Below are positions 44,332-61,014 of a stretch of 64,000 bases of DNA, piece by piece; position 1 is the stretch's first letter, and the number at the start of each line of letters is the position of its first letter. A program made the position numbers and the translations under genes. The stretch spans positions 62,001-126,000 of the forward strand of contig NZ_CP041025.1 in assembly GCF_006385135.1 (NCBI RefSeq), in the 5' to 3' direction. A model generated the notes under the pieces. It worked only from the letters and a program-made list of their open reading frames with translations, was not told the DNA's origin and ran no database searches. Source of the DNA: Paremcibacter congregatus (GTDB lineage Bacteria > Pseudomonadota > Alphaproteobacteria > Sphingomonadales > Emcibacteraceae).

Positions 44332-45240
44332 TCAGAGATTGAATTTGGTGACAGCCAGGACTTTATTGCCTTTGTCGAGATATTCCAGATAGTCAAAACT
44401 GGTGGCGCGGGCCAGCGCAATACCCCGACCATGATGGGTCTGGTTGGTGAGCAGGTCGTCTTCCAGATAGCTATCGTAATCAAACCCGTTGCCTTGATCC
44501 GTGATCTTGAACGTGACGAGGTTACTTTCTCGCTCAAAAACGATTTCGACGTATTTGTCTTTGTTTTCAGGCAGGTGAAGGCGTCTTTGAATTTCGTCCC
44601 GATGTTTGTTTTCAGCCATCAGTTCGCGTTTTTCCTCATGACTGATGCTCAGGTTGCCATGTTCAATACCATTGGCGAGCAATTCGAACAGACCAAAGGC
44701 GACCCGGTCCGGTTCAGGGCAAGCCAGGGACAACATGGTGGTCAGGGCTTCGGCCTGATCAAATGTCTTGATGCGGAAAGTACCCCGGGTAATGGCGCCA
44801 ATGACGGATTCCCGGGAATGAATTTCCCGCCGTAGCGCCCGTCGCTGGGCAAATTCGCTTTCGGCGCTTAACACCATGGAATAAAGCGAACTTGCGGTAA
44901 AAGGATGTTGCAGCCAGAGATATGGCGCTGAATGTTTGAACGGTTTGATCCGGTCCTGTTCCTGAACGTCGACACGCAGTATCAACGGGATATCGCGCAG
45001 GGTAGTGGTTGACGTTAACTGCTTGAGGAAATTACCATTTTCCATGATAATACGGTAATTGACGATGATGGTATGAATGGCGCCCACTTTTTCGGTCAGT
45101 AGCATCAGGGCGTCTTTTAAAGACGTGGCCTCAACAAAGGGGCAATCACACGTCGTCAGTATTCCGGGAATGTCAGTAGTGCCCCCAGCTTTGAGGGGTG
45201 TCTGATTAGTGTCATGTATAACCAATACAGTCATGGCCAA
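44332..45240 (-). CDS. Pseudo-receiver plus RsbW-like ATPase (serine kinase/anti-sigma type)
   Basis: A 302-residue protein. Residues 1-125 look like a receiver fold but the acidic pocket is changed (VIHDTN for the acid pair, VNYRI where the phosphoacceptor Asp should be). The C-terminal half is a GHKL ATPase of the anti-sigma kind, with N-box GLFELLANGIEHGNL and G1 motif TDQGNGFDY, then HHGRGIALARA. Such proteins bind or phosphorylate STAS antagonists. It is divergent from, and next to, the STAS-CheY-CheA operon, which encodes two STAS proteins and a PP2C phosphatase. Confidence 0.8.
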   Translation of the reverse strand: MAMTVLVIHDTNQTPLKAGGTTDIPGILTTCDCPFVEATSLKDALMLLTEKVGAIHTIIVNYRIIMENGNFLKQLTSTTTLRDIPLILRVDVQEQDRIKPFKHSAPYLWLQHPFTASSLYSMVLSAESEFAQRRALRREIHSRESVIGAITRGTFRIKTFDQAEALTTMLSLACPEPDRVAFGLFELLANGIEHGNLSISHEEKRELMAENKHRDEIQRRLHLPENKDKYVEIVFERESNLVTFKITDQGNGFDYDSYLEDDLLTNQTHHGRGIALARATSFDYLEYLDKGNKVLAVTKFNL

Positions 45241-45467
45241 ACTTTGCCTTCGGTCGTGGGGTAATCATTGCTCAACGGGCCACACAATAGAAGAAAAATG
45301 GTTTCAACTTTATTAATGGGGGGCCGATGACCTTCCCCGCATCCATGTTTTCTCATAGATAGTACCGGTTTTGGGGAGTCTGAGAACATTTGCAACATAA
45401 AAACATTATTATATTCGTAAATAATAATCTTCTTAAAACAAATTTAAGGTTTCCCGTCTAGCGTGTC

Positions 45468-45479
45468 CTGTCTAGACAG
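45468..45479. promoter_or_regulatory. 12-bp perfect palindrome before the chemosensory operon
   Basis: CTGTCTAGACAG is perfectly symmetric and lies 38 bases before the first start codon of the operon. The intergenic 45241-45517 (277 bases) contains AT-rich promoter-like sequence and no gene. Possible operator. Confidence 0.4.
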
Positions 45480-45517
45480 TAAAGTATGTGAGTTACAGTT
45501 CAAGCATTGAGGGTATA

Positions 45518-45832
45518 ATGAGCGCATTCACGATAGAGACTTCACATGAAGAAAATAGAATCCAATTACATTCTGTTCTGGACCTGTCCTCGGCGGAAGA
45601 TTTGCTTCATGGATTTCGAAATTGCCTGGAGACTGGTAATGCTCTTGTTGTGTCCGGGGCGGAGGTGGAACGCTTGACCACGCCCTGCATTCAGATCCTG
45701 TGCGCCGTACAGAAAAAAGCGGCTCTCCTGAATGTTCCTTTCACTTTTTCCGAAATGTCAGATGCCTGCAGACAGGCTTTGACAGACGTTGGAATCCCTC
45801 AGGATTCTCTCATTCTGGAGCACACAATATGA
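45518..45832 (+). CDS. STAS-domain protein, non-canonical phosphosite
   Basis: A 104-residue single STAS domain (LHSVLDLSSAEDLLHGFRN, then LVVSGAEVERLTTPCIQIL). The Ser of the phosphosite, normally DSSG or DSAG, is replaced by TTPC. Starts at ATG 45518 with GAGGGT upstream; an alternative start at 45488 is less good. First gene of the chemosensory operon and overlapped by cheY (ATGA). It may be a binding partner of the divergent ATPase. Confidence 0.78.
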   Translation: MSAFTIETSHEENRIQLHSVLDLSSAEDLLHGFRNCLETGNALVVSGAEVERLTTPCIQILCAVQKKAALLNVPFTFSEMSDACRQALTDVGIPQDSLILEHTI

Positions 45833-46194
45833 GTAGAACTGCATTAACAATTGACGATTCAAAAACCATGCGGGACATGGTGTCATTTACCCTGAAGAAC
45901 GCTGGCTTTGAAGTTATGGAAGCAGAAAATGGTCAACTGGGCCTGGACCAGGTAAGCAACGGGAAATTTGATGTGATTATCACAGACATCAATATGCCGA
46001 TTATGGATGGTCTTACCTTTACCCGGGAGGCCCGAAAGCTATCACAAGCCAGGACGACCCCCATTCTGATCCTGACGACGGAAAGCGATTCCAATATTAA
46101 AAATGAAGGCCGAAGCGCAGGTGCGACAGGCTGGATTGTTAAACCGTTCAACCCGGAAAAACTGCTTCAGGTTGTTGAGAAAGTGTGTGGATAA
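45829..46194 (+). CDS. cheY: Chemotaxis response regulator CheY
   Basis: A single-domain receiver of 121 residues: acid pair at residues 9-10 (LTIDDSKTMR), phosphoacceptor Asp53 in ITDINMPIMDG, Thr in ILTTES and Lys in IVKPFNPEKL. It receives phosphate from CheA. Four-base overlap with the STAS gene shows coupling. Confidence 0.94.
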   Translation: MSRTALTIDDSKTMRDMVSFTLKNAGFEVMEAENGQLGLDQVSNGKFDVIITDINMPIMDGLTFTREARKLSQARTTPILILTTESDSNIKNEGRSAGATGWIVKPFNPEKLLQVVEKVCG

Positions 46195-46270
46195 AGCACT
46201 TTCTCCTCATATGAATTTGCTGTTGCGCCAGAGGCATGCGCGTTAACGGCGTTGCGAAAAGGGGACTTTA

Positions 46271-48373
46271 ATGTCAGATCCGATGGAACAGTTTAAGGCC
46301 ATTTTCTTTGAGGAATGCGCAGAACTGTTGATCAGCCTGGAAGAAGGCCTGATGCAGTTGCAGGCGGGTGACAGTGATGTGGAAACCCTGCATTCTGTCT
46401 TTCGCGCGGTGCATTCCATCAAGGGCGGGGCGGGAACCTTTGGTTTTGCGCAGTTGGTGTCTTTTGCACATATTCAGGAAACCCTGCTCGATGATATGCG
46501 CGCCGGCGCCCTGGAAATGGAACCGGCCTATTTGGATGTTTTGCTGAAAGCCTTTGACGTTCTGACCGAACTGGTCGGGGCGGCGCAGCAGGGGATTGTG
46601 CTGGATGAGAATTACGGCGCGGAAGTCGCCCGGGCGATGACGGATATTTTGAAACATACCGGTGTGCCGCTTTCCGGGGAGGAGGATCATGCGGCGGCGC
46701 AGGCGGACTCCGGACTAGGAGAAGTGGCGGCAAAAGAACACCTTTTCCAGATTCTGTTTAAACCCTTTCCCGATATGTTCCAACGGGCCAATGAACCGTT
46801 GCTTTTGATCCGTGAACTGGCGTGCCTTGGACGGCTGGAGACAATACTGGATCAGACGGCGTTGCCGGATCTGGAAGACATGAAGGCCGAACAGGCCTAT
46901 TTTATCTGGCGGTTTCGTCTGGTCACTTCGGCGAATGTTGCCGATATAGAAGAGATCTTCGAATTTGTCGAAGGCGATTGTGATCTGGACATTACCGACC
47001 TTGGACCCTACCTGTCACCTGATGCTTTTGTCGCAGATGACGCGGCCGGTCTGTTTGAACCGGAAGACACGCTTGTCGCGTCGTCTCAGAAAACGACCCG
47101 GCCAAAAGACACGAAAGTGCGCGCCCGCAGTGAAGAGGTGGTCAGCAAGTCAATCCGGGTCGAGCTCGACAAGGTAGATCGTCTGGTGAATATGGTGGGT
47201 GAACTGGTTATCACCCAGGCCATGTTACAGGAACAGGGTGGTCAGATACTGGTCGAACAATATCCTAATCTGGTGCAGGGCATCGATGAAATGTCCCGTC
47301 ATGTGCGTGAATTGCAGGACAGCGTTATGGCAATCCGCGCCCAACCGGTAAAATCCGTGTTCTCGCGCATGCCACGACTGGTGCGGGAACTGACCGGCGC
47401 CTTGGACAAGAAAGCCCGTCTGGTGATGTCGGGGGAAGAGACCGAAGTTGATAAAACCGTGACGGAACGCATCGGTGATCCATTGATGCATATGATCCGC
47501 AACAGTGTTGATCATGGGCTGGAATCCCCGGAGGAGCGTCGGGCAGCGGGCAAGGATGAAGAAGGCGTTATACATTTATCGGCCTTTCATCGCGGCGGAC
47601 GAATATTTATCGAAATAGCTGATGACGGGGCGGGGATTAATCAGGATGTGGTGTTGAGAAAGGCCATTGAACGGGGTCTGGTGCATTCAGACGCGATCCT
47701 GAACGACGATGAAATCAACAATCTGATCTTTATGCCGGGTTTTTCCACGGCCGAGGCCGTGACCAATGTGTCGGGGCGCGGCGTGGGCATGGATGTGGTG
47801 CGCAAGAATATTCAAGGCCTCGGCGGGCGGATATCCATCGATTCAACACCGGGCAAGGGCAGTAAATTCAGCATGTCGCTGCCGCTGACCCTGGCGGTGA
47901 TGGACGGCATGGTGGTCGAAATTGGTCGGGAGAAATACGTGCTTCCTCTGGCCAATATCATTCAAAGTCTGCGTCCGGAACCGGATGAGATAAGCGCGTT
48001 GCCCGATGGCCGCAATCTGATGATGTTTCGCGGTGATTATATCAGTCTGGTGCCGCTTTATGACATTTTCAAGGTGCAGGACGCGCAACGTGATCCCTGC
48101 AACGGTCTTGTGGTCGTTGTTGAGGGGGAAGGCGGAGTCCTGATGGGCTTTATTGTCGATGATCTGGTCAATCAACAACAGGTCGTGATCAAAAGCCTGG
48201 AAGAAAACTATGAATTGGTCGAAGGCGTTTCAGGCGCGACCATTCTGGGCAATGGCCTGGTGTCCCTGATTGTTGATATCGCCGCCGTGCAGAGTCTGAG
48301 CTCCGGCCCGTATGAATTATCAGAGACATCGCCCCGTCCATCAGAATCCAAGACAGAGGTACGATACCAATGA
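46271..48373 (+). CDS. cheA: Chemotaxis histidine kinase CheA
   Basis: A 700-residue kinase. P1 has phosphoacceptor His48 in FRAVHSIKGGAGTFGF. A P2-like domain (residues about 150-240) precedes dimerisation helices (KVDRLVNMVGELVITQAML), the ATPase domain (HMIRNSVDHGLESPEERR, ADDGAGIN, FMPGFSTAEAV, GRGVGMDVVRKNI) and the CheW-like C-terminal domain. It follows cheY by 76 bases and overlaps cheW by ATGA. Confidence 0.97.
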   Translation: MSDPMEQFKAIFFEECAELLISLEEGLMQLQAGDSDVETLHSVFRAVHSIKGGAGTFGFAQLVSFAHIQETLLDDMRAGALEMEPAYLDVLLKAFDVLTELVGAAQQGIVLDENYGAEVARAMTDILKHTGVPLSGEEDHAAAQADSGLGEVAAKEHLFQILFKPFPDMFQRANEPLLLIRELACLGRLETILDQTALPDLEDMKAEQAYFIWRFRLVTSANVADIEEIFEFVEGDCDLDITDLGPYLSPDAFVADDAAGLFEPEDTLVASSQKTTRPKDTKVRARSEEVVSKSIRVELDKVDRLVNMVGELVITQAMLQEQGGQILVEQYPNLVQGIDEMSRHVRELQDSVMAIRAQPVKSVFSRMPRLVRELTGALDKKARLVMSGEETEVDKTVTERIGDPLMHMIRNSVDHGLESPEERRAAGKDEEGVIHLSAFHRGGRIFIEIADDGAGINQDVVLRKAIERGLVHSDAILNDDEINNLIFMPGFSTAEAVTNVSGRGVGMDVVRKNIQGLGGRISIDSTPGKGSKFSMSLPLTLAVMDGMVVEIGREKYVLPLANIIQSLRPEPDEISALPDGRNLMMFRGDYISLVPLYDIFKVQDAQRDPCNGLVVVVEGEGGVLMGFIVDDLVNQQQVVIKSLEENYELVEGVSGATILGNGLVSLIVDIAAVQSLSSGPYELSETSPRPSESKTEVRYQ

Positions 48374-48921
48374 CAACAGAAGTTTTACAGACAGAAACAG
48401 AGACCAGATCCGACACCGACGGCATGACCCGTCAATATATCTCCTTTACCATCGGGGCGGAGACTTATGCGGTGAAAATCACCATGGTGCGGGAGATCAA
48501 AGGCTGGATCCCGACAACCAGTCTGCCGAATGCACCGGATTATATGCGGGGCGTGATTAATTTGCGGGGTGTTATTGTCCCGGTATTTGACATGCGAACC
48601 CGTTTCGGGCGCGGGCGTACAGAACCGGGCAAAACCCATGTGGTGATCATTGTCACGCTTGAGGAACGCACCATCGGCATTCTGGTGGACGCGGTATCTG
48701 ACATTCTGACCATTGCCGCGGAAGATATTCTTGCCGTGCCGGATCAGGACGCCAATCCGGAATATGCCTTTATGGAAGGCCTGGTGTCCGTAAATGAAAA
48801 GATGATTGCGATTGTAAAGCCGAGAATGCTGTTCGATATGAACAAAATTCCGGACATGGATCTGGCCGGAAACGCCAGTGACGAGAATACCGGGGATATG
48901 GCCCGTGCGGCGGTTGCGTAA
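48370..48921 (+). CDS. cheW: Coupling protein CheW
   Basis: CheW joins receptors to CheA. The 183-residue protein has the SH3-like repeats (QYISFTIGAETYAVKITMVREI, TTSLPNAPDYMRGVINLRGVIVPVFDMRTRFG) and an N-terminal extension of about 20 acidic residues. Start overlaps cheA. Confidence 0.95.
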   Translation: MTTEVLQTETETRSDTDGMTRQYISFTIGAETYAVKITMVREIKGWIPTTSLPNAPDYMRGVINLRGVIVPVFDMRTRFGRGRTEPGKTHVVIIVTLEERTIGILVDAVSDILTIAAEDILAVPDQDANPEYAFMEGLVSVNEKMIAIVKPRMLFDMNKIPDMDLAGNASDENTGDMARAAVA

Positions 48922-48979
48922 TCGCATGCGGCAGGCACAAAATTGATATTTGAGACAAGTTAGCGAAAGAGGCACTGTT

Positions 48980-51900
48980 ATGGGACGTTTTTTAAAAGAT
49001 AATCAACTGATGAAGAAGCTGCTGAACGCCAGTTTAATGACCAAACTTATTGGCGGTATCGTGACGCCGGGGGTTATCACTATTGTTCTGGGGGTGATGA
49101 TTTACAACACAACCGTTGAAACCACCCATCAGGAGCTCGAAAGCAAATTTATCAATGTTATAGAGTCCCGAAAGGCCGGGCTTGAGCAATATCTCGGCTC
49201 CATCCAAGAAGACCTTGTGATTGTCGCCCAGAATCCTGCCACCGTCGAGGCGATCAAGACTTTTTCCAAGGGGTGGCGCGATCTCGGCGCCAACGCGGGG
49301 ACGGAACTGCAGTCGAATTATATTTTCAAAAACCCACATCCGCCAGGCCAGAAAGACAAGTTGATGTCCGCTCAGGATGGCTCTAACTATAGCCAGGCTC
49401 ATGCGACATATCATTCCTGGTTCCGCAATCTTCAGGAAAAACGGGGCTATTACGATGTCTTTCTGTTCGATACAGAAGGAAATCTGGTCTACACGGTCTT
49501 TAAGGAGCCGGATTATGCGACCAATTTTACCACGGGTCCCTGGCGCGAAACCGATTTGGCCAAGGCGTATATGGCCGCCAAGAATGCCGGACGTCCGGGC
49601 GTGGTGTCCTTCTTTGACTTCAAAGGATATGAACCAAGTAACGGCGCGGCGGCCAGTTTTATTTCAACGTCAATTTATGATGTCGACGGGACTTTTGTCG
49701 GCGTTCTCGCCTATCAGATGCCGATCGCCAACATTAATGCTGTGATGGGGCAATCCACCGGGCTGGGGAAAACCGGGGACGCTTTTATCGTTGGCGAAGA
49801 TCTGTTGATGCGGACGGACAGTCGTTTCGTTACCGGCACGGAAAATTCGACAATCCTGACCCGGAAAGTGGATACGGAAGACGTTCAGCAAGCTTTGCAA
49901 GGTAAAACCGGCAACCTGGAAACGTTGAATCATGATAATACCGAAGTGATATCTTTTTATGAGCCTTTTCGCTTCGAAGGTGTGAAATGGGCATTGATTG
50001 GCCAGATTGACAAGGCGGAATACATGATGCCGATAAATCAGGTAACCCAGATCCTGCTTCTGGCGCTGGCGGTGGTCTTTATTCTTTCCGCCGTGATGGT
50101 CATCATTTTATCGCGGCTTATCGGTGCGCCGATTGTCGCCGCCACCGAGTGCCTTATTGCCCTTTCCAAGGGCAACAGAGCACAGCTCGATCTTGATTTA
50201 AGCAGAACTGATGAGATTGGCCGTATGGCCAATGCCATGACGGTTCTGCAGTCAGAGGCTCTGGAAAACCTGAGGATCAGGGAAGCAACCAACAGCGCCA
50301 AGACCAATATCATGGTCGCGGATGCGGACTATAACATCGTTTATATGAACCAGACCATGCAGGATATGATGCGGGAAAATGAACAGAAACTGCGCCAGGA
50401 TCTGCCCAAGCTGGATGCCCGGAAACTGGTTGGCGTGAACATTGATATTTTTCACAAGGACCCTTCTCATCAGCGGCGCATTCTTGATGGATTGACCGGT
50501 ATCAAGGAAACCACAATTAAAGTGGCGGGATTGTCGTTTGATCTGGTGGTGAATCCGATCATCGATCAGGACGGCAACAGGGCCGGTACGGTCGTGGAAT
50601 GGGAAGATGTGACGAAAAAACTGGCCCGCGAGCAGGAAGATATGCGGATTGCCAACGACAATCAACGCATCAAGATTGCCCTGGATAATGCCAGCACCAA
50701 CATGATGGTGGCCGACAAGGATTACAAGATTGTCTATATGAACAATGTTTTACTGAAAATGATGCGCGAGGCTGAATCGGATTTGCGTAAGGATCTTCCG
50801 CATTTTGACGCCAGCAAGATTGTCGGCAGCAACATTGATATTTTCCATAAAAATCCGGGCCACCAGAGAGGCTTGCTTGATAATCTGACATCTACCTATG
50901 AGGCGAACATCAAGGTTGGCGGATTTGATTTCAATCTGGTCGTCAACCCGGTAACGGACGACAGTGGGGCGCGTCTGGGCGTCGTGGTTGAATGGAAAGA
51001 CATGACCCAGGAACTGGCAATTGAGGCTGAACTGAATGTCGTGGTCAATGCCGCCGCTGCCGGTGACTTTACCAAAAGGGTGGTCACGGAAGGCAAGCAG
51101 GGCTTCATGCTCAACCTGGCCAATAACATGAACAGCATTGGCGAGAACACCCAGGCGGCGACAGATGATCTGGCGCGGGTTCTGGCGGAACTGGCCAAAG
51201 GGAATCTGACCGAAACCATTGACGCCGACTATGAAGGCACCTTCGAGCTGCTGAAAGACAGTTCCAACGAAACGGCAGAACAGCTGACCAATATTGTCAG
51301 CCAGGTCAATACCTCTGCCGGGGAAGTGGCGACCGCCTCGGCGGAATTGTCCACCGGAAGTGATGACCTCAGCCGGCGCACAGAGGCCCAGGCCTCTGCA
51401 CTGGAAGAGACCGCGGCCTCCATGGAGGAATTGGCGGTGACGGTTAAACAAAATGCGGATAATGCAGGCGATGCCAATAAGCTCGCCGATACATCCCGTG
51501 AGATGGCGGTCAGTGGCGGCGCGGTCGCCAAGCAGGCCGTCGATGCCATGGGCGCGATTGAGGCGTCTTCACAGAAAGTTTCCGATATCATTGGCGTGAT
51601 TGACGACCTTGCCTTTCAGACCAACCTTCTGGCCCTGAATGCGGCGGTGGAAGCCGCCCGGGCCGGGGAAGCCGGCAAGGGATTTGCGGTTGTGGCGGAA
51701 GAAGTCCGCACATTGGCGCAACGCTCGGCCCAGTCTTCGAACGAGATCAAATCTCTTATCACCAGTTCCAATACCCAGATTAAAAACGGGGTCGAACTGG
51801 TCAATAACGTCGGGACAGCCTTGAATGACATTATGGAATCAATCACCCAGGTGGCCGAAATTGTATCAGAGATCGCCAATGCCAGCGCCGAACAGACCCA

Positions 51901-52222
51901 GGGCATTGACGAGGTCAATGTCGCGATTGCGGAAATGGATGATATGACCCAGCAAAATTCATCCCTGGTGGAACAAAGCACTGCTGCCGCCCGGCTGCTG
52001 GAGCGTCAGGCGGCCGAGATGCAACGTTTGATGTCCTTCTTCAAGATCGGGGATGCCATGGGGGGACAACGGGCGGCTGCCCCGGTTCTGACCCAACGGG
52101 GTCAGGCCAGTCGTTCTATCGGTCTGGTGGAAAGCCCGGAATCTGTGGTAACGCCGAATCTTAAAAAGAAATCTGTGGCGAACGGCAGTGTGGGCACGGA
52201 TCCGGATTGGGCTGAATTTTAA
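48980..52222 (+). CDS. Methyl-accepting chemotaxis receptor with tandem PAS domains
   Basis: A 1080-residue membrane receptor. Helix 1 is at about residues 19-42, a Cache-type periplasmic domain follows, then helix 2 (about 355-378) and a HAMP-like stretch. Two PAS domains repeat with a 131-residue period (from about residues 441 and 572), both with YMN, LRxDLP, NIDIFHK and LVVNP. HAMP follows at about 681, then the signalling domain with the hairpin tip near [20 protein letters not shown]. The C-terminus is DPDWAEF, a CheR/CheB-tethering-like pentapeptide. Start ATG 48980 with AGAGGC upstream; a TTG 30 bases earlier is less likely. Confidence 0.93.
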
Positions 52223-52234
52223 GAGGGGAAATAT

Positions 52235-53122
52235 ATGTCGGAAAGCGGAATGCCGCTCGCGCGGGAAAAGGAGCGGGAATTTGAATGGCGCCAACAGGAT
52301 TTTGATTTTTTATCCGCGTTGCTTCACGACAAAACAGGCATTGTGCTGACCGCGAAAAAGAAAGAAATGGTTTATGGGCGTCTGGTACGCCGTCTGCGGG
52401 TGCTGCGGCTTGACAGCTTTGAAGCCTATTGCCGTTATCTGGCCGGACCGGACGGGGAAACGGAACTGGGTATGGCGCTCAATGCGATTACCACCAATAC
52501 GACCAATTTCTTTCGGGAAATTCATCATTTTGAATTCCTGCGGGACAAAATTCTCCAGCCCCTGCGCCGTCAGGTTGATGCCGATGCCGGGCATCCGGTG
52601 CGGATATGGTCTGCAGGCTGTTCTTCGGGACAGGAACCCTACAGCATTGCGATGGTGATGCGGCGTACGTTGGGGGGACGGACGCGGAATTGCAAAATTC
52701 TGGCGACGGATCTGGACACCAACATGCTGGATATGGCGAAGGCGGGATATTATGAGGCGGAACGCTGTGCCGATACGATTCCGAAAAACCTGTTCAAGAC
52801 CTACACCCGTCCGAGCCGGAGACGAACGACCCGAGGACATCAGGAAGAATTGCGGGAAATGTCACCGGACCTGAAAGAGATTATTACGTTTAAAGAACTT
52901 AATTTGTTGCACCCCTGGCCGATGCGGGGGAAGTTCGATGCTATCTTTTGCCGTAATGTGATGATTTATTTTGACCGGGAGACACAAACCAACCTTGTGC
53001 GTCGCTACGCTGAATATTTAAAGCCCAACGGAATTTTATTCGTCGGACATTCTGAAAGCCTTCTGAATGTATCAGACATATATAAATGTGAAGGTAAAAC
53101 GATTTATAGGGTGCTGACATGA
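52235..53122 (+). CDS. cheR: Chemotaxis receptor methyltransferase CheR
   Basis: A 295-residue SAM-dependent methyltransferase that methylates receptor glutamates. It has an N-terminal helical domain, the TTNFFREIHHFEFLRD segment, SAM motif SAGCSSGQEPYSIAM and FDAIFCRNVMIYFD. The beta-subdomain used to bind a receptor C-terminal pentapeptide fits the DWAEF end of the adjacent receptor. Good AGAGGGGA ribosome-binding site; overlaps cheD by ATGA. Confidence 0.95.
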   Translation: MSESGMPLAREKEREFEWRQQDFDFLSALLHDKTGIVLTAKKKEMVYGRLVRRLRVLRLDSFEAYCRYLAGPDGETELGMALNAITTNTTNFFREIHHFEFLRDKILQPLRRQVDADAGHPVRIWSAGCSSGQEPYSIAMVMRRTLGGRTRNCKILATDLDTNMLDMAKAGYYEAERCADTIPKNLFKTYTRPSRRRTTRGHQEELREMSPDLKEIITFKELNLLHPWPMRGKFDAIFCRNVMIYFDRETQTNLVRRYAEYLKPNGILFVGHSESLLNVSDIYKCEGKTIYRVLT

Positions 53123-53790
53123 GGGGGCTCGTGTCCGAGAGGACCCACAATGTAATGGAAAAAAGACCTGGATTAAAGGATCGGCGGCGGCGGATAGAGG
53201 CAGTGGAAGCTAAAGTAGGGTCAACCTATTTTAACCAGCACTTCAATGCCACGGTGCATCAAGTCAATCAGGGGGGCTATTGCGTTCTGGTGCAGTCCGA
53301 AGACATGATCATGACCACATTAGGATCCTGTATTTCTGTTTGCGTTTATGATCCGCTCATCAGGGTGGGAGGCATGAACCATTTTCTGCTGCCGGAAAAC
53401 AAAGGCGCGGAAACGAAGAATGATTTCTCGATGCGCTATGGCAACAACGCCATGGAATATCTGATCAACGATATTTTACGGTGTGGTGGTCAGCGGGAAC
53501 GTCTGGTTCTCAAGGCGTTCGGGGCGGGGAATGTGTTGAAGATCAAGGCGGACATCGGGGCAAAGAATATTGAATTCCTGCACCAGTATGTCAAAGCCGA
53601 GAATCTGTATCTGGAAACCTGTGATCTCGGGGGGAATTATCCGCGCCGGGTTGCTTTCTGTCCTTCGACGGGCAAAGTTTTCGTCAGAATACTGCGCCGT
53701 ACGAGCGATCTGAATATCGTGGCCCAGGAAACAAAATTCCGGAACCGGATAGAACAGGAAACTTTAGGGGGTGAGGTTGAACTTTTTTAG
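53119..53790 (+). CDS. cheD: Chemoreceptor glutamine deamidase CheD
   Basis: A 223-residue CheD deamidase with the catalytic Cys71 in TTLGSCISVCVYDP and His88 in GGMNHFLLP. The N-terminal basic extension (about 35 residues) is not part of the family core. Its C-terminus reads GGEVELF, an acidic, Phe-ended tail similar in style to the receptor and CheZ-like tails. Same operon, overlapping cheR by four bases. Confidence 0.94.
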   Translation: MRGLVSERTHNVMEKRPGLKDRRRRIEAVEAKVGSTYFNQHFNATVHQVNQGGYCVLVQSEDMIMTTLGSCISVCVYDPLIRVGGMNHFLLPENKGAETKNDFSMRYGNNAMEYLINDILRCGGQRERLVLKAFGAGNVLKIKADIGAKNIEFLHQYVKAENLYLETCDLGGNYPRRVAFCPSTGKVFVRILRRTSDLNIVAQETKFRNRIEQETLGGEVELF

Positions 53791-53802
53791 GAGAGCCCGG
53801 TT

Positions 53803-54867
53803 GTGTCGCCACAGATAAAATTACTCATCATTGATGATTCTATCCTGATCAGAACCATGATCCGGGCCGTCGTGTCGGCTGACCCGATGATTACGGTGGT
53901 GGGCGAAGCCGCGGATCCTTATCAGGCGCGGGAGAAGATTAAACAGCTTAATCCTGATGTGGTGACTTTGGATGTGGAAATGCCCCGGATGGATGGCATT
54001 GCTTTTCTCGAAAAGATCATGTCCCTGCGCCCCATGCCGGTGATTATGGTGTCGACCCTGACGGGCAAGGGGACGGAAGTAACCCTGCGGGCGCTTGAAC
54101 TCGGGGCGGTGGATTATGTCGCCAAACCACAAGATCAGGATCTTAGCAGCATCGCCACGGAGTTGATTGCCAAAATAAAAATTGCCCGGTTTGCGCAGGT
54201 CCGTCAAAGCGGGCGGGCCCGCACCCCGGACAAAGGCGGGCGCCCACTGGCGGGGCCCGCCTGCTATAACGCCAAGATCATTGTTATTGGCTCGTCAACC
54301 GGTGGGGTGGAGGCCTTGCACGCGATTATCAGGAGACTGCCGGCCGGCTGTCCGCCGATCGTGATCGCCCAGCATATTTCCGGCGGGTTCTCGGCCCGGT
54401 TTGCCGCCCGGGTCGATAAAGACTGCGCCCCCCGGGTCAAGGAAATCGAGGACGGGGAGATATTGCAGGCGGGAACCATTTATATTGGCGAGGGCGGGAA
54501 GCATTTTACCGTTCGCAAACGCGGCGTCCAGTTGATTGGTCATGTGGCCTGCGGGGATGAAAATGACAGCTACCGCCCGTCGGTTGATCGGCTGTTCAAG
54601 TCGGTGGTGACGAGTGTCGGTGCCGATGCGGTGGGGGTAATTCTGACCGGCATGGGCAAGGACGGCGCGGAAGGATTACTGAGCCTGCGCCGGGCCGGGG
54701 CAATGACATTGGGACAGGATGAAGCAAGCTGCGTCGTATATGGCATGCCGAAGGCCGCAATGATGGCCGGGGCGGTTGCGAAACAGGTGCCTTTGTCCCA
54801 AATGGCCCAGGAAATACTAATCGCCAGCGCCGGGAATAAAACGGCGCGGAAAGCAGGGGTGGCATGA
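53803..54867 (+). CDS. cheB: Protein-glutamate methylesterase CheB
   Basis: A 354-residue CheB: receiver with Asp57 in TLDVEMPRMDG, then the methylesterase domain with catalytic Ser in IGSSTGGVEA, His in IAQHISGGF and Asp in TGMGKDGAEG. Starts with GTG; AGGAG lies upstream. Overlaps the CheZ-like gene by ATGA. Confidence 0.95.
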   Translation: MSPQIKLLIIDDSILIRTMIRAVVSADPMITVVGEAADPYQAREKIKQLNPDVVTLDVEMPRMDGIAFLEKIMSLRPMPVIMVSTLTGKGTEVTLRALELGAVDYVAKPQDQDLSSIATELIAKIKIARFAQVRQSGRARTPDKGGRPLAGPACYNAKIIVIGSSTGGVEALHAIIRRLPAGCPPIVIAQHISGGFSARFAARVDKDCAPRVKEIEDGEILQAGTIYIGEGGKHFTVRKRGVQLIGHVACGDENDSYRPSVDRLFKSVVTSVGADAVGVILTGMGKDGAEGLLSLRRAGAMTLGQDEASCVVYGMPKAAMMAGAVAKQVPLSQMAQEILIASAGNKTARKAGVA

Positions 54868-55550
54868 GCAAAACAAACTCGCACAAGAGATACCATAACG
54901 ATGCGCCCGGCGAAAAGGCGGTGGCCGAGTCATTGGGAGATATGGAATTGACATTTAAGGACGTGTATCAAATTCAACAAAGCACTCTGGCCAATATCGC
55001 CAGTGAAATTGTGATCATTTCCGATATGGTCGAGGAGCGAATGACCGAACTGTCATCCGAATTCAGGCATCTTGTCACCTCTTCTCAGCAACAGGAGAAA
55101 ACCATCGGCGAGGCCCGGCGATTGCTGAGGCCTGATTTCATGACGACGGAGCGTCAGACATCGCACGCCGTGTATAAACTTTTTTCAGATCGCCCGGAAA
55201 TGACCGGTGATCTGAAACAAAATTCAGACCGTATGGTATATGCGATGCAATTCCAGGATCAGATGCGTCAGAGAATGCAGGCGATAGCGGCGACGTTAAA
55301 TATGCTGGGTGGTCTTCCCGCCGAAGGGGAAAGTTATTCAGAAAATAATAATATAAAGGAAAAGGTAACTATTTCAGATGATAATAAGCGTTTCCTGCAT
55401 CAGGTGATCAAAAGATGTGCCCCCAAGGAACTGGATCAGAGATACATCATGAAAATGTTTTTTGGCGGCGACAGGGATGAAGAAGAAAAGGCTGGTTCAG
55501 GCTTGGGTGTGCGGCAGGATAGCGATGCGACGGATATTGAATTTTTTTAA
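54864..55550 (+). CDS. CheZ-like CheY-P phosphatase candidate
   Basis: A 228-residue helical protein. Residues 128-136 read MQFQDQMRQ, and Asp132 and Gln136 have the same spacing as Asp143 and Gln147 of Escherichia coli CheZ. A long helix pair precedes this, and a flexible acidic linker leads to a C-terminal ATDIEFF, like the CheY-binding end of CheZ. Similarity outside this motif is low, so the call is a motif-and-context inference. It overlaps cheB by four bases, so it is part of the operon. Confidence 0.6.
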   Translation: MSKTNSHKRYHNDAPGEKAVAESLGDMELTFKDVYQIQQSTLANIASEIVIISDMVEERMTELSSEFRHLVTSSQQQEKTIGEARRLLRPDFMTTERQTSHAVYKLFSDRPEMTGDLKQNSDRMVYAMQFQDQMRQRMQAIAATLNMLGGLPAEGESYSENNNIKEKVTISDDNKRFLHQVIKRCAPKELDQRYIMKMFFGGDRDEEEKAGSGLGVRQDSDATDIEFF

Positions 55551-55564
55551 CTGAAGGATGCCAA

Positions 55565-55873
55565 ATGGAATATCAAGTAGATGTCAAAGAGGATGTATTT
55601 GAAGCCAAACTCAGCGAGAAGATAACATTTTCAGACCTGGATGGTTTCCGGGAAATGGTCAAGCGCATGGTCGCCAGCCATTCCGAGAATAATATTGTTG
55701 ATCTCTCGGCGGTGGAGTTTATTGATTCGGCAGGGTTAGGCATGTTGCTTCTGGCCCGGGATGAAATTTCAAAAACATCCGCCAATCTGACTTTGCGGTC
55801 ACCGCAGGGGCAGGTCAAGCGCATGTTTTCTGTCGCCCGGTTCGATCAGATGTTTGAAATAGATAATTCATAA
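55565..55873 (+). CDS. STAS anti-sigma factor antagonist
   Basis: A 102-residue STAS protein with the canonical phosphosite EFIDSAGLGML (Ser55), so it could be phosphorylated by an RsbW-type kinase and restored by a PP2C phosphatase. It lies 14 bases after the CheZ-like gene and 68 bases before the PP2C gene. It differs from the other STAS protein of this locus, which lacks the Ser. Confidence 0.88.
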   Translation: MEYQVDVKEDVFEAKLSEKITFSDLDGFREMVKRMVASHSENNIVDLSAVEFIDSAGLGMLLLARDEISKTSANLTLRSPQGQVKRMFSVARFDQMFEIDNS

Positions 55874-55941
55874 AATCCTGATATTTTCCAGCCGCCACGG
55901 GTCGCGATACCCTTATGTTTTGAATAAAAAGAGTAACGGCG

Positions 55942-57186
55942 ATGTGTCCTACATCAATGTATAGTGCCAAGAATAACCTGAAGAAACAGGGTGATGCTAT
56001 TTCCGATATGGCGGAAGACATTTTCGGGTGCCGGATTCTTATCGTTGACGATGAAGATTTCAACCGCGAACTTGTGGCGGCGATTCTCGAACGCGAAGGA
56101 TACACCAAGCTCTATTTCGCCGAGGATGGTCAGGACGCGCTGACCAAGGCGAAAGAGATTGAACCCGACCTGATTGTGATGGATGTGGTGATGCCGGGTA
56201 TGGACGGGGTCGCCGCCTGCAGAGAATTGCGCACCGAGGAGCCGTTTAAAAACACCCCGATCATCATCCATACCTTTCAAACAGACCCGGAAGAGCGGGC
56301 CCGAATCTATCAGGCTGGCGCCACGGATATTTTTCCAAAACCGGTCGCCAGAGGTGAAGTTGTCAATCGGATCAAGATGCATTTGACATATACCCGCATG
56401 ATGCTTGGGTTGCAGGATTATCATCAGCGTCTGACCCGCGACCTGGAAATCGCCCGGTCCATGCAGGGGGCGTTGTTGCCTGATGCGGAGGAACTGGTCA
56501 GTCTTGAGGATAGCCACCAGATCAGCATCCTGTCACAATATGAAGCATCGGATGAACTGGGGGGTGATTTCTGGGGGCTTGAGCGTCTGGATGATGATCG
56601 TATTTTTGTCTATGTGACTGATTTCGCCGGGCACGGCATTTCTGCGGCTCTCAATACCTTTCGCCTGCATTCCCTGATTTCCAATTACCGGAACCGCCCG
56701 GGATTTAAAATTGTGTCTCCGGCGTATTATCTGGAAAAACTCAATAAAGATTTGTTTCAGCTTCTGCCTATGGAACAATATGCCACCATGTTGTGCGGTA
56801 TCATTGATACCAGGAACAACACCTTCAGTTATTCCTCTGCGGCGTCGACGGCGCCCTTGATCCTGAAAACCGGGACCCGACAGATTCGCGAATTGGACCC
56901 GACCGGCTACCCCTTGGGCATGATTCAGGAGGCCGCTTATGACGTGCGGGTGGAGCCTTTTGAAAAAGGGGATATGCTGTTTTTATATAGCGATGTTCTG
57001 GTGGAAAGCGAAGACCAGATGGGCCGGATGATCGGCAATGAACAATTTCTCGAGATGTGCCGGGATTCAAGTGTCAATGTGGTGGAAGGAAAACATTTCC
57101 TGCAGCGGTTCCAGAAATTGTTCGATATGTATGTGGTGCGGCCCCTGAAAGATGATCTGACGGCGGTGACGCTCGAACGGCTGTAA
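55942..57186 (+). CDS. Receiver-PP2C phosphatase (RsbU/SpoIIE type)
   Basis: A 414-residue protein with an N-terminal receiver (acid pair in VDDED, phosphoacceptor Asp81 in VMDVVMPGMDG) and a C-terminal PP2C-type phosphatase (ASDELGGDFWGLE, VTDFAGHGISAAL, DDLTAVTLERL). Phosphorylation of the receiver by CheA could control dephosphorylation of the STAS antagonist. The start is not well fixed; 55942, 55960 or 56008 are possible. It ends the operon next to the convergent Lrp gene. Confidence 0.9.
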   Translation: MCPTSMYSAKNNLKKQGDAISDMAEDIFGCRILIVDDEDFNRELVAAILEREGYTKLYFAEDGQDALTKAKEIEPDLIVMDVVMPGMDGVAACRELRTEEPFKNTPIIIHTFQTDPEERARIYQAGATDIFPKPVARGEVVNRIKMHLTYTRMMLGLQDYHQRLTRDLEIARSMQGALLPDAEELVSLEDSHQISILSQYEASDELGGDFWGLERLDDDRIFVYVTDFAGHGISAALNTFRLHSLISNYRNRPGFKIVSPAYYLEKLNKDLFQLLPMEQYATMLCGIIDTRNNTFSYSSAASTAPLILKTGTRQIRELDPTGYPLGMIQEAAYDVRVEPFEKGDMLFLYSDVLVESEDQMGRMIGNEQFLEMCRDSSVNVVEGKHFLQRFQKLFDMYVVRPLKDDLTAVTLERL

Positions 57187-57194
57187 GGGCCGGG

Positions 57195-57620
57195 CTATAT
57201 TTCAAACTTGGTTGAAAGAACGATTGAGGAGGTGGTCTTGTTGATCCCGTCCATGCGGCCTATTTCGTCCAGAGTCGAATCAATTTCTTCCGTGGTTTCC
57301 GCCTTGACCAGGGCAATCATGTCATAAATACCGCTGACCGCATAGACGGCCTTGATCAGGGGAATTTTACGCAGGCGGGCCAGAATCTGGTCGGCATTCT
57401 TGGGGTTAAGCTGAATCAGAACATGCGCCGTGATCAGACGGTTCTGATAATCTTCATTAAACCGAATGGTATAGCCGGCGATGATGCCGCGGTCTTCCAG
57501 ACGCGCGATGCGGTCCTGCACGGTTGATCGTGACAGGCCGAGTTTGCGGGCCAGCGCCGTGGTGCTTTCCCGGCCATTGTTTTTCAACAGATTGACGAGT
57601 TTCTGATCAGTATCATCCAT
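57195..57620 (-). CDS. Lrp/AsnC family transcriptional regulator
   Basis: A 141-residue regulator with an N-terminal helix-turn-helix (TTALARKLGLSRSTVQDRIARLEDRGII) and a C-terminal RAM ligand-binding domain (VYAVSGIYDMIALVKAET). It is transcribed divergently from the acyl-CoA-synthetase gene, with 188 bases between them, and may control it. Ligand unknown. Confidence 0.9.
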   Translation of the reverse strand: MDDTDQKLVNLLKNNGRESTTALARKLGLSRSTVQDRIARLEDRGIIAGYTIRFNEDYQNRLITAHVLIQLNPKNADQILARLRKIPLIKAVYAVSGIYDMIALVKAETTEEIDSTLDEIGRMDGINKTTSSIVLSTKFEI

Positions 57621-57808
57621 ATATGATAAATGCCGAATTTTCCGGTAATATGCAAGTCAAAACCCATCAACATGACAGGTAATTTTGCACAAAATGCATG
57701 ATTGTGCCGTCGGGGCATTCGCGTTATGCTGCGGTATAAAAAGAAAGCTGGGAGGCGACGATCAAAATCAAAACAGCACAAGACTGCGCAGAACTTGCCC
57801 AAATACCG

Positions 57809-59599
57809 TTGCAGAACCGCCTTGATGGCTTGACGTCAACATATGCCGTGATCCGCCGCGCCGCCGCCCGCTGGCCGGACAAGGCGGCGATCCGGTTCCT
57901 GCCCACTGCCGCCCTGGATGAAACAGGGATTGAAATCAGTTATGCCGCCCTTTTCGCCCGGGTCACCCGTACAGCGAACCTGTTGCATGATCTGGGCATT
58001 GGCCCGGGGGACGTAGTGTCTTATTTACTGCCCAATCTACCGGAAACCCATTATGTGTTGTGGGGGGCGGAGGCCGCCGGCGTGGTTAATCCAATCAACC
58101 CGCTACTGGAAACAGATCATATGGTGGCGATCATGCAGGCCGCGGGTACCAAGGTTCTTGTTGCATCTGCCGCGCCGGACATCTGGCGCAAGGCTCTGGA
58201 TATAAAGGCGCAGGTGCCGAGCCTGCGCCATCTGGTTCAGGTCGGGGGGACGGGGGAGACGGACGGATCTGTGGTGATTTATGATCAGCTGGTTGACACA
58301 TATCCGGCGGATCATCTGGCCAGCGGTCGTGACATCCGCCCTGATGACATCTGTTCCCTGTTCCACACCGGGGGCACGACCGGGGTCCCCAAACTTGCCA
58401 TGCACAGTCATTACAATGAAGTGGCCAATGCCTGCATGCTGGCCCTGTCTGCTGAATTAAGCGAGGCGGATGTCGGGCTGTGCGGGTTGCCGTTGTTTCA
58501 TGTGAACGGGGCGATTGTTACCGGGATTGGATGTTTTTTCAGCGGTGCGACGGTGGTTCTGGCGACGCCGGGCGGATATCGGACGCCGGCGCTTCTGGCC
58601 CATTTCTGGCAGATTGTCGCCCGTTATCAGGTCACCTTCTTCAGCGGTGTGCCAACGATTTATGCCGGTTTGTTGCAGACGCCGGTGGGGGAGACCGATG
58701 TGTCGAGCCTGCGCATGGCGATTTGTGGCGCGGCCCCTATGCCGCGGGACATTATTCGCCAGTTTGAGGCCCGCACCGGCCTGACCCTGATTGAGGGATA
58801 TGGCCTGACAGAAGGCACCTGTGTCAGTTGCGTCAATCCCCTGTATGGAGAGCGTCGCATTGGTTCTATCGGATTCAGCATGCCGTATCAGGATATGAAA
58901 ACCGTGATCATCGACGGGGAAGGCGCCTATGTGCGGGATTGCGCCCCGGAAGAAATTGGCACCGTGGTGATCCGGGGCCCCAATGTCTTCCACGGGTATC
59001 TACAGGAAGAGGCCAACGCGGGCATCTGGGTTGAGGGGGACTGGTTCAATACGGGTGATATGGGGCGCCAGGATGCAGAAGGCTACTTCTGGCTTACCGG
59101 GCGCACCAAGGAGCTGATCATTCGCGGCGGGCATAATATTGATCCGGCGATCATTGAAAATGAACTGGTCAAGCATCCGGCCGTGGCCCAGGTGGCGGCG
59201 GTGGGAAAGCCGGACGCTTATGCCGGGGAACTACCGGTGGCCTATGTGGTGCTGAAACCGGGCATGACCTGTAGTATAGCGGCCCTGATCGGGTTTGCGG
59301 CCCAGGGGATCGCGGAACGGGCGGCGGTGCCGAAAGACATTTATCAGGTTGATGCCCTGCCGCTGACGGCGGTGGGCAAGATTTTCAAGCCGGACCTGAA
59401 ACGGGATGCCATCCGGCGCGTCATTGCCACGGAACTGGCCGATTTTGCGGCAGAAATAAATATTTCTGTGGCAGCGGACAAGACATATGGTACTGTGGCG
59501 ACCATTCATTATGATTCAGCCCTGTCGGCAGAACAAATCAGAAAAATACGACAGACCATGGGTCATTTTGCGTTTCAAACGATATTAAAAGAAAAATAA
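57809..59599 (+). CDS. Acyl-CoA synthetase (AMP-forming)
   Basis: A long-chain-type acyl-CoA ligase of about 600 residues. The AMP-binding P-loop LFHTGGTTGVPK is near residue 186, with GYGLTEGT and WFNTGDMGRQDAEGYFWLTGRTKE downstream. It activates a carboxylic acid to its CoA thioester. The TTG listed here has no ribosome-binding site. A strong GGGAGG precedes an in-frame ATC at 57761, which would add IKIKTAQDCAELAQIP and resembles the N-terminus of homologues; see findings. The gene is followed closely by the NSS symporter. Confidence 0.9.
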   Translation: MQNRLDGLTSTYAVIRRAAARWPDKAAIRFLPTAALDETGIEISYAALFARVTRTANLLHDLGIGPGDVVSYLLPNLPETHYVLWGAEAAGVVNPINPLLETDHMVAIMQAAGTKVLVASAAPDIWRKALDIKAQVPSLRHLVQVGGTGETDGSVVIYDQLVDTYPADHLASGRDIRPDDICSLFHTGGTTGVPKLAMHSHYNEVANACMLALSAELSEADVGLCGLPLFHVNGAIVTGIGCFFSGATVVLATPGGYRTPALLAHFWQIVARYQVTFFSGVPTIYAGLLQTPVGETDVSSLRMAICGAAPMPRDIIRQFEARTGLTLIEGYGLTEGTCVSCVNPLYGERRIGSIGFSMPYQDMKTVIIDGEGAYVRDCAPEEIGTVVIRGPNVFHGYLQEEANAGIWVEGDWFNTGDMGRQDAEGYFWLTGRTKELIIRGGHNIDPAIIENELVKHPAVAQVAAVGKPDAYAGELPVAYVVLKPGMTCSIAALIGFAAQGIAERAAVPKDIYQVDALPLTAVGKIFKPDLKRDAIRRVIATELADFAAEINISVAADKTYGTVATIHYDSALSAEQIRKIRQTMGHFAFQTILKEK

Positions 59600-59634
59600 C
59601 CGAACAATAAAAATAAAGGATTGGGATTAATAAA

Positions 59635-61014
59635 ATGCAAGCAGCAAAACATGAACATTGGTCTTCGGGCTTTACGTTTCTTCTCGCGGCGGTGGGGAGC
59701 GCCGTGGGGCTCGGCAACATCTGGCGCTTTCCTTATGTGGTGGCGGAAAACGGAGGCGGTGCCTTCGTCCTGATTTATCTGGCGATCGTGGTGGTCTTTG
59801 GCATTCCATTGCTGATGTCGGAACTGATGATTGGCCGGAAATCCCAGAAACCGCCGCTGGACGCCATGCGCAGCTTCAAGGTGTCCAAGGCCCAGCGCCT
59901 GTGGGATGCCGTCGGCTGGTCTTATCTTCTGGTGCCAATGGGCATTTTGACCTTCTATTCCGTGGTTGCCGGCTGGACGCTGGACTATGCCATTGGTATG
60001 GGTATTGGCACCTTCAATGACCTGAAGGAAGGCGAATCCGCGCAAATCTTCGCTGACTTACAAGCCAGCCCTGCAAAACTGATTTTCTGGATGACCCTGT
60101 CGGTGGGCATCACGGTCGGCATCGTGGCCCGCGGCCTGAAATCAGGACTGGAGCAAACGGTCAAAATTCTGATGCCGGCTCTGTTCGCCATTCTGGTTAT
60201 TCTGGTGTTATATGCTTCCATCACCGGGGATTTTGTCCGCAGTTTCAGCTTTATGTTTACCCCGGATTTCAGCAAGATCACCCCGGAACTGGTGCTTATG
60301 GCGGCGGGACAGGCCTTCTTCTCCCTGTCGCTCGGTAGTGGCGCGATCATGGTCTATGGCTCTTATCTGACCAAGGATATCTCCATTCCCAAGATGGCGG
60401 TGGGCGTGGCATTTGCCGATACCTTTGTCGCTTTACTCGCCGGTTTCGCCATCTTCCCGATCGTCTTTGCCTTTGGTGTTGACCATGCGGCAGGGCCGGG
60501 TCTGGTGTTTGTCACCCTGCCGATCGTCTTTAACGATATGGGTGGCATTGGTCAGGTCTTTGGCCTGCTGTTCTTCCTGCTGCTGGCTTTCGCGGCGGTT
60601 ACCTCGACCATCTCCCTGCTGGAGCCAATGGTGGCGCAGCTGTCGGAAAGTGGCAAAATCAAGCGCCCCCGGGCGGCGATTTACGCCGGGGCGGCCTTCT
60701 GGTTCGTCGGCATCTTTGTCGCCTTGTCGAATAATATCCTGGCGGAAGTCTATCCTTTGGGTTTCATTCCCCTGTTCGCGGGGATGAATATTGAAGGCCT
60801 GATCAACTTCCTGGCGGCGAATGTCTTTATGGTGCTGAACGGCATGCTGGTGGCGATCTTCGTCGGCTGGGCGGTGAAACGTTCGGTGACGCTCGAGGAA
60901 ATGGGTCTCGGTGATTCCGTGATCTTCAAGATCTGGTTTGCCCTGGTGCGTTTTGTCGTGCCAGTGGGCGTCAGCCTGATCTTCCTGGATGTGGCCTTCG
61001 GCATCTTCCAGTAA
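59635..61014 (+). CDS. Neurotransmitter:sodium symporter family transporter
   Basis: A 459-residue sodium-dependent transporter of the NSS/SNF family with 11-12 helices. The first helix has the diagnostic GSAVGLGNIWRFPYV (unwound, sodium- and substrate-binding), followed by GGGAFVLIY. Members take up amino acids such as tryptophan or leucine. It lies 35 bases after the acyl-CoA synthetase and is closed by a strong terminator. Proximity to the hut genes does not establish histidine as the substrate. Confidence 0.92.
   Translation: MQAAKHEHWSSGFTFLLAAVGSAVGLGNIWRFPYVVAENGGGAFVLIYLAIVVVFGIPLLMSELMIGRKSQKPPLDAMRSFKVSKAQRLWDAVGWSYLLVPMGILTFYSVVAGWTLDYAIGMGIGTFNDLKEGESAQIFADLQASPAKLIFWMTLSVGITVGIVARGLKSGLEQTVKILMPALFAILVILVLYASITGDFVRSFSFMFTPDFSKITPELVLMAAGQAFFSLSLGSGAIMVYGSYLTKDISIPKMAVGVAFADTFVALLAGFAIFPIVFAFGVDHAAGPGLVFVTLPIVFNDMGGIGQVFGLLFFLLLAFAAVTSTISLLEPMVAQLSESGKIKRPRAAIYAGAAFWFVGIFVALSNNILAEVYPLGFIPLFAGMNIEGLINFLAANVFMVLNGMLVAIFVGWAVKRSVTLEEMGLGDSVIFKIWFALVRFVVPVGVSLIFLDVAFGIFQ

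Follow-up and report, generated by a model that had tools for sequence, protein, structure and literature searches.

By what route does a chemosensory gene cluster that also carries a complete partner switch deliver its signal, and what ends that signal? The question is raised by a stretch of 64,000 nucleotides of Paremcibacter congregatus (hereafter the window: C1:62001-126000 of a single-contig genome of 4.19 Mb), in which twelve genes occupy positions 44332-57186. Our answer, to which we give a probability of roughly 0.55, is that these genes make up a chemosensory system of the stage 1 F7 type, by gene order, with a partner-switch output, and that a protein of 228 amino acids (aa), whose gene stands where related clusters carry the McpA-like receptor, ends the signal. 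Relatives' loci and genomes are designated below by L and G numbers, respectively. The genes are the following:

44332..45234, minus strand: switch kinase, a presumed anti-sigma-type ATPase, with an N-terminal degenerate receiver and HATPase_c_2 (Pfam HATPase_c_2, E 2.3e-8); divergent from the operon
45518..45832, plus strand: STAS1, a small STAS_2 protein (Pfam STAS_2, E 2.6e-8) with TTPC where STAS2 has DSAG (alignment)
45829..46194, plus strand: CheY, a single receiver with an intact phospho-site (Pfam Response_reg, E 1.6e-27)
46271..48373, plus strand: CheA histidine kinase (Pfam Hpt, H-kinase_dim, HATPase_c, CheW)
48370..48921, plus strand: CheW coupling protein (Pfam CheW, E 1.4e-33)
49010..52222, plus strand: chemoreceptor, in the order dCache, HAMP, PAS, PAS, HAMP, MA (Pfam dCache/PAS/HAMP/MCPsignal), with the C-terminal tether-like pentapeptide DWAEF
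52235..53122, plus strand: CheR methyltransferase (NCBIfam PRK10611, E 8.1e-74, below cut-off)
53119..53790, plus strand: CheD deamidase (Pfam CheD, E 1.1e-25) with the C-terminal tail EVELF (alignment)
53803..54867, plus strand: CheB methylesterase (NCBIfam PRK00742, 403 bits against a cut-off of 293)
54864..55550, plus strand: 228-aa helical protein, a receptor-less McpA derivative and putative CheY phosphatase, with a conserved N-terminal helix, an FQDxxxQ helix (D132, Q136) and the tail DIEFF (genus profile matching both McpA-like ends; no Pfam or NCBIfam match)
55565..55873, plus strand: STAS2 antagonist with the phosphorylatable Ser55 in DSAGLG (Pfam STAS, E 1.1e-15; NCBIfam ant_ant_sig over cut-off; alignment)
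55942..57186, plus strand: receiver-PP2C phosphatase of the SpoIIE/RsbU type (Pfam Response_reg, E 1.3e-28, and SpoIIE, E 3.5e-33), with receiver and metal-site residues conserved

The first-pass annotation had the gene set, order and coordinates right, all twelve genes being in place with matching Pfam and NCBIfam identities; neighbours overlap by a few bases at 45829/45832, 48370/48373, 53119/53122 and 54864/54867. The complete partner switch that it described alongside the chemosensory module is likewise borne out by the catalytic residues: in the alignments the ATP-site residues of the ATPase are invariant among its relatives, the receiver and metal-site residues of the PP2C protein fall in invariant columns, and the Ser of STAS2 is phosphorylatable. 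Cluster III of Vibrio cholerae was also the right comparison. According to Ortega et al. (2020; PMC7184735), the stage 1 F7 layout of V. cholerae cluster III and Methylomicrobium alcaliphilum runs STAS, cheY, cheA, cheW, receptor, cheR, cheD, cheB, McpA slot, STAS, serine phosphatase, which order is near-identical to that of the window, and the window receptor, ending in DWAEF, complies with the stage 1 tether x-[HFYW]-x2-[HFYW]. The window departs from that model in belonging to an alphaproteobacterium, in having one CheW where two cheW-like genes would be expected (the remaining CheW matches of the genome fall in CheA or at 2.5 Mb), in its dCache receptor, in a McpA slot that holds a receptor-less derivative, and in an ATPase that is split off, divergent, and provided with a pseudoreceiver. 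The association of a chemosensory system with a partner switch is not new, having been published for stage 1 F7 (PMC7184735) and for Che1 of Shewanella (PMC9855816); what the window adds to that picture is an occurrence in Alphaproteobacteria, a kinase that is split off and has a dead receiver, and a McpA without its receptor part.

What, then, is the 228-aa protein? Domain scans found no Pfam or NCBIfam family match and no MCPsignal hairpin, and at the BLAST level the similarity to McpA of the L053 type is weak (E 1.2e-5, 24-25% identity). By hhalign, the profile of the window genus matches the N-termini of McpA proteins at 94.9% (P 4.8e-8) and their C-termini at 98.6% (P 1.4e-15), mismatched pairings serving as controls giving 0.1-4.5%. 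Since the gene sits in the slot of the McpA-like receptor of the published and related clusters and both ends match, we regard the protein as McpA minus its signalling hairpin. With the McpA-like receptors (CttP/PA0180, VCA1088), the comparison having been made with fetched McpA-like proteins rather than with those named Pseudomonas and Vibrio ones, it shares the slot, the N- and C-terminal segments and the tail [IV]x[LF]F, whereas the methyl-accepting hairpin is missing. To judge from the sequences, a receptor-less McpA in this slot looks new. Short receptor-less forms also occur in L188, L207 and L214, where the motif persists without the receptor part, and a match to the 228-aa protein was absent in two same-genus genomes, G003 and G014 (64% and 67% complete). 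In L051 and L052, where STAS2, PP2C and ATPase were not found, the protein is shortened and its tail altered, and in L051 the CheD tail is extended.

An 18-sequence alignment of the C-terminal part contains six invariant columns, namely Q, F, Q, D, the Q four positions after that D, and the last F. A hairpin-tip pattern found 24 receptor open reading frames, of which the six with FQDxxxQ are all of the McpA type and the 18 others are without the motif; among the 26 long forms in which the tip pattern was found, 24 have the tip motif and FQD 116-118 residues apart, and in the other two (L093, L133) the distance is 123. Among 397 Pseudomonadota genomes the C-terminal McpA profile had matches in 78, which figure is not a pure McpA count because at least one true CheZ is among them. 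Within the 32 of those 78 matches whose neighbourhoods were fetched, a protein with QFQDxxxQ plus the tail [IV]x[LF]F appeared in 21, nearly always among che genes, and one with QFEDxxxQ plus the tail in L200 and L213; neither appears in the remaining nine, which include the true CheZ.

The gene had earlier been called CheZ-like, which name holds for the spacing of the motif and fails as an identification. D132 and Q136, at the DxxxQ spacing of CheZ within the FQD helix, correspond to what we take to be the catalytic residues of CheZ, and the protein has in common with CheZ (PF04344) both the FQDxxxQ helix and a short acidic hydrophobic C-terminal tail; it differs in its lack of a Pfam match and in an N-terminal half that matches McpA. 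The candidacy of the protein as a canonical CheZ was accordingly rejected on the lack of a Pfam or NCBIfam match, the two CheZ genes of the genome lying elsewhere. Beyond the motif itself, the FQD region of McpA matches CheZ at 79.8-88.5% by hhalign (controls, 0.7-4.4%), an agreement that is partly circular because the McpA and CheZ sets were chosen by the motif. Less circular is the retrieval by the McpA C-terminal profile of a true CheZ in G105 (E 6.2e-7; Pfam CheZ, 57.8 bits). Pfam CheZ also gave matches, all below cut-off, to a short form in L188 (E 2e-4) and to McpA proteins in L192 (0.0013), L216 (0.0095) and L187 (0.034). In L207 a short QFQD protein adjoins one CheY, while a true CheZ (233 bits) adjoins another CheY of the same cluster.

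A number of results, besides that circularity, weigh against a phosphatase. With the motif masked, the match of the McpA FQD region to CheZ falls to 14.9%, and the C-terminal profile of the window genus by itself reaches 1.9% (both by hhalign). Of 14 McpA-type proteins scanned singly, Pfam CheZ matched four, none over cut-off, and ten gave nothing; in the C-terminal alignment it reached two of 18 members at E<=10. The McpA of L200 and L213 has FEDxxxQ instead of FQDxxxQ, the D and Q being retained, and a McpA-labelled protein in L211 is without the motif. The structure model of the 228-aa protein shows two long helices, CheZ being a dimer with a four-helix bundle, but is poor (predicted TM score, pTM, 0.36), and a fold search with it returned nothing at E<=0.001 and no CheZ among its best 50 rows; a second model is likewise weak (pTM 0.33), so that we draw no inference from the fold. 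A profile search of the family against solved structures gave nothing relevant (best E 0.045). The similarity between McpA and CheZ is thus suggestive and may reflect homology or convergence; it is not proof.

Could the helix and the tail serve docking alone? In L185-L216, when proteins with both ends complete are counted, the motif [IV]x[LF]F terminates 18 of 18 labelled McpA and 7 of 14 CheD, and no CheR (0/21), CheB (0/24), CheW (0/27) or CheY (0/25); the two of 26 labelled methyl-accepting proteins that bear it are both the FQD proteins of their loci. Docking therefore looks selected and, because CheD and McpA share the tail, one docking partner is suggested. Under this alternative, the 228-aa protein and the McpA C-termini would act as an adaptor whose tail recruits CheR, CheD or CheY to the arrays, and DxxxQ would be a coiled-coil contact with no phosphatase action, as would suit the weakness of the CheZ similarity. 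The pentapeptide-like tail of McpA is already published (PMC7184735, PMC11940527), and a 2025 review, which assigns VCA1088 to system III, states that an E-W/V-E-x-F tail may bind CheR3 (PMC11940527); Ortega et al., for their part, report that the valine form of the tail prevents interaction with CheR in Pseudomonas aeruginosa (PMC7184735). Furthermore, the D and Q at the CheZ spacing are among just six invariant columns and are kept in the FED variants, and the motif is also present in proteins from which the receptor part is altogether missing, for which reasons we consider a purely structural role somewhat unlikely. The conserved tail is a candidate counterpart of the C-terminal tail by which CheZ binds CheY. 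In the literature searched we found no mention of such a tail on CheD. As to individual loci, the McpA of L053 (L053:10104-11297) carries a pair of motifs resembling the tail close to its C-terminus, EIEMF ... NIELF, giving the impression of a duplicated docking site, and an unlabelled 588-aa frame near the che cluster of L213 (L213:3745-5511) likewise ends in DIELF.

Returning to the 228-aa protein as a terminator of the signal, we tentatively extend the idea, at slightly less than even odds, to the family: the McpA-like "receptors" of ancestral F7 systems may be receptor-phosphatase fusions, in which an array-docking hairpin stands at a nearly fixed length from a CheZ-type active site and is joined to a docking tail shared with CheD; they would be the missing CheY phosphatase of F7, and several lineages, this one included, would have receptor-less forms. 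Ortega et al. state that in genomes of stages 1 and 2 cheZ accompanies F6 alone, that the conserved C-terminus of McpA is important yet its role unclear, and that McpA is dispensable for the array (PMC7184735); apart from that deletion, no experimental work on VCA1088 was known to a 2020 review (PMC7534058). Our literature search, made without supplements and most subscription papers, found no published statement that McpA carries the CheZ motif. A lineage that keeps the two ends of McpA and drops the receptor part indicates which part matters, and DxxxQ makes the role testable; the claim that McpA-like proteins are the phosphatases of F7 is the most useful outcome of this analysis, bearing as it does on a family found in many bacteria.

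The partner switch shows features of its own. The receiver of the ATPase had been described as dead, and it is: no Pfam receiver match was obtained and the key residues are lost, the two acid-pocket positions and the phospho-site, Thr and Lys positions reading H, D, N, D and H. The ATPase family is widespread, with at least 456 of 587 candidate stretches confirmed, of which the best 80 loci were kept; the best named relative among the matches listed is a metagenome-assembled genome (MAG) called Emcibacter sp., at 65% identity. In an alignment of 81 receivers (76 of those 80 loci plus five genus and order loci, the rest having been dropped by length or score), an acid, the phospho-Asp and the Lys are retained in 71. 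Since the window and its alphaproteobacterial che-linked relatives have lost the residues, while L066, L068, L100 and L108 retain them, the receiver died in one lineage. A separate switch kinase with a dead receiver looks to be a new feature with respect to the known relatives. STAS1 carries Thr-Thr-Pro-Cys at the position of Asp-Ser-Ala-Gly in STAS2, and all ten STAS1 aligned have TTPC or STPC, so that STAS1 may either receive phosphate on Thr or escape phosphorylation. In the genome, SpoIIE gave one match over cut-off, the window receiver-PP2C, and one below; PF01740 gave two, STAS2 and one within a 588-aa frame, which count covers PF01740 and not PF13466; and HATPase_c_2 gave four over cut-off, the window ATPase among them. 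The window switch thus appears to be unique of its kind in the genome.

Do the two halves belong together? The cluster recurs, as a search for the gene set in other genomes showed. In the same genus, the ATPase lies divergent before STAS1 (L039, L041, L044, L046); in the order-level relatives L053 and L054 it closes the row, being encoded on the same strand as the others, and the 228-aa slot is filled by a McpA-like receptor of 356-397 aa. L093 (Maricaulis) has this second layout, and L133 likewise, except that STAS2 was not detected. In Nitrospirales the arrangement differs, L066 and L068 having receiver-PP2C, ATPase, STAS proteins, McpA, CheY, CheA, CheW and receptor together, and L100 and L108 parts of that set. 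With such recurrence across the genus, families, orders and Nitrospirales, the layout is beyond chance. In L200 a single protein of 584 aa in the matching slot combines a receiver and SpoIIE with a HATPase_c_2 match that stays under the Pfam cut-off (E 4.3e-5), which one-chain protein links the window PP2C to the window ATPase. An apparent abundance of relatives fusing receiver-PP2C with the ATPase was discarded as a labelling artefact, receiver having matched receiver; among the candidates checked, only L200 showed the three domains.

Across 14 same-genus genomes with the cluster, its own included, which genomes are related and some of them fragments, and in which the PP2C gene was sought at the cluster, the ATPase was found in 6/7 with an intact receiver-PP2C and in 1/7 without. 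The exceptions are G002 (74% complete), with an intact receiver-PP2C and no ATPase found, and G015, with the ATPase and no intact receiver-PP2C; a match in G001 was discounted (18.8 bits, receiver part only, internal stop). Neither the PP2C receiver nor the ATPase was found in G006, G008 and G010. The two halves also occur apart: G011, and G009 as far as the contig end, keep the che genes with no STAS2, PP2C or ATPase found; G017 and G018 have the ATPase, and their best CheA matches (273.5 and 281.9 bits) belong to the large kind, none being F7-like; and G421 has McpA, STAS2 and ATPase, its sole CheA being of the large kind (920-aa frame). In L057, a Kordiimonas MAG, STAS2, receiver-PP2C and ATPase lie beside the same holA-like neighbour (L057:7796-10696) with no che genes nearby, its CheA matches being of the large kind. 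Obligate coupling was therefore rejected, as each half persists without the other (G009, G011, G017, G018). The linkage seen in the first-pass annotation thus stands, without being obligatory: the che and switch halves are modules, linked, co-inherited and separable. In the small alphaproteobacterial genomes of L187 (L187:8908-11020) and L189 (L189:8730-9733), McpA, STAS2 and ATPase stand in a row with no labelled che genes in the fetched stretch.

That the halves are mere neighbours, CheY acting elsewhere (e.g., on the motor or another receiver) and the PP2C receiver answering another kinase, would agree with their separation in several genomes, with the flagellins of this genome, and with HsbR of P. 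aeruginosa, which is charged by HptB and not by CheA (PMC6482189). We nevertheless think it unlikely, given the shared operon, a linkage that extends from the genus to other families, to Pseudomonadota and to Nitrospirales, and the published Shewanella Che1 link, worded as "could be" (PMC9855816).

Gene content, motifs, the McpA homology, linkage and co-loss are compatible with the following scheme, whose phosphotransfer steps, phosphatase action and client we infer. Receptor arrays would control CheA, with CheR, CheB and CheD setting receptor adaptation; phosphorylated CheA would charge CheY and probably the PP2C receiver; the charged PP2C would take the phosphate off Ser55 of STAS2, and the divergent pseudoreceiver-ATPase would restore it, so that the client would be held or released by the ATPase (or STAS2) according to the balance of phosphorylated and free STAS2. 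The 228-aa protein, a McpA-like receptor stripped of its whole hairpin, would most likely dephosphorylate phosphorylated CheY (or the PP2C receiver) through its CheZ-like helix. The mechanics of such switches are described for Pseudomonas HsbR/HsbA (PMC6482189), where receiver, PP2C and GHKL kinase domains likewise act on one STAS antagonist; HsbR and CrsR are single-chain, whereas the window has two genes. Che1 of Shewanella oneidensis contains the same components, CrsR and CrsA, and could, according to Fortier et al. (2022; PMC9855816), be involved in RpoS regulation; the window differs in its separate ATPase and in a genome without a recognised RpoS.

What might the client be? RpoS was considered and is not supported: no genome match exceeded the TIGR02394 cut-off, two sigma-70 matches lying below it. 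The client thus differs from the RpoS proposed for Shewanella, and since the che-to-partner-switch link occurs in a genome without a recognised RpoS, clients other than RpoS must exist. The absence of flagellar genes noted earlier is true of the window; elsewhere in the genome, three flagellin matches exceed the cut-off at 3.05 Mb, a frame of 1066 aa at 2.506 Mb encodes a second CheA, and CheZ is present twice, so that the window cluster is an extra chemosensory system. The second CheA may represent the further (F6) system that goes with a stage 1 F7 cluster. Nor is a non-flagellar output supported as first stated. The check for a sigma gene covered two of the four Nitrospirales loci, L066 and L068; in both, a gene that exceeds the TIGR02479 cut-off for FliA/WhiG sigma factors (L066:7601-8401, L068:7551-8351) stands after the FlhB and FlhA genes and directly before receiver-PP2C and receiver-ATPase, which hints at a possible client and is a reason for caution in describing the output as non-flagellar. 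A FliA-type (sigma-28) factor or the anti-sigma FlgM, to which HsbA binds (PMC6482189), would make the output motility still, by way of gene expression instead of the motor; this we hold doubtful, no sigma gene being seen by eye beside the window cluster, in a genome not searched for FliA. A client enzyme, for instance a diguanylate cyclase by analogy with HsbD, to which phosphorylated HsbA binds (PMC6482189), would fit the lack of an RpoS over cut-off and is improbable, as none of the operon proteins scanned with Pfam shows a cyclase domain and the ATPase domains of the CrsR and HsbR types bind a sigma factor (PMC6482189). A STAS protein of L068 is fused to HDOD, itself a possible client.

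Elsewhere in the cluster, receptor lengths vary from 755 to 1026 aa among the same-genus clusters, the C-terminal part aligning best to the window receptor, and the sensor half may therefore be swapped. Downstream, at 57195-61014, lie genes named by eye as an AsnC-like regulator and a transporter, which genes also adjoin the cluster in same-genus loci.

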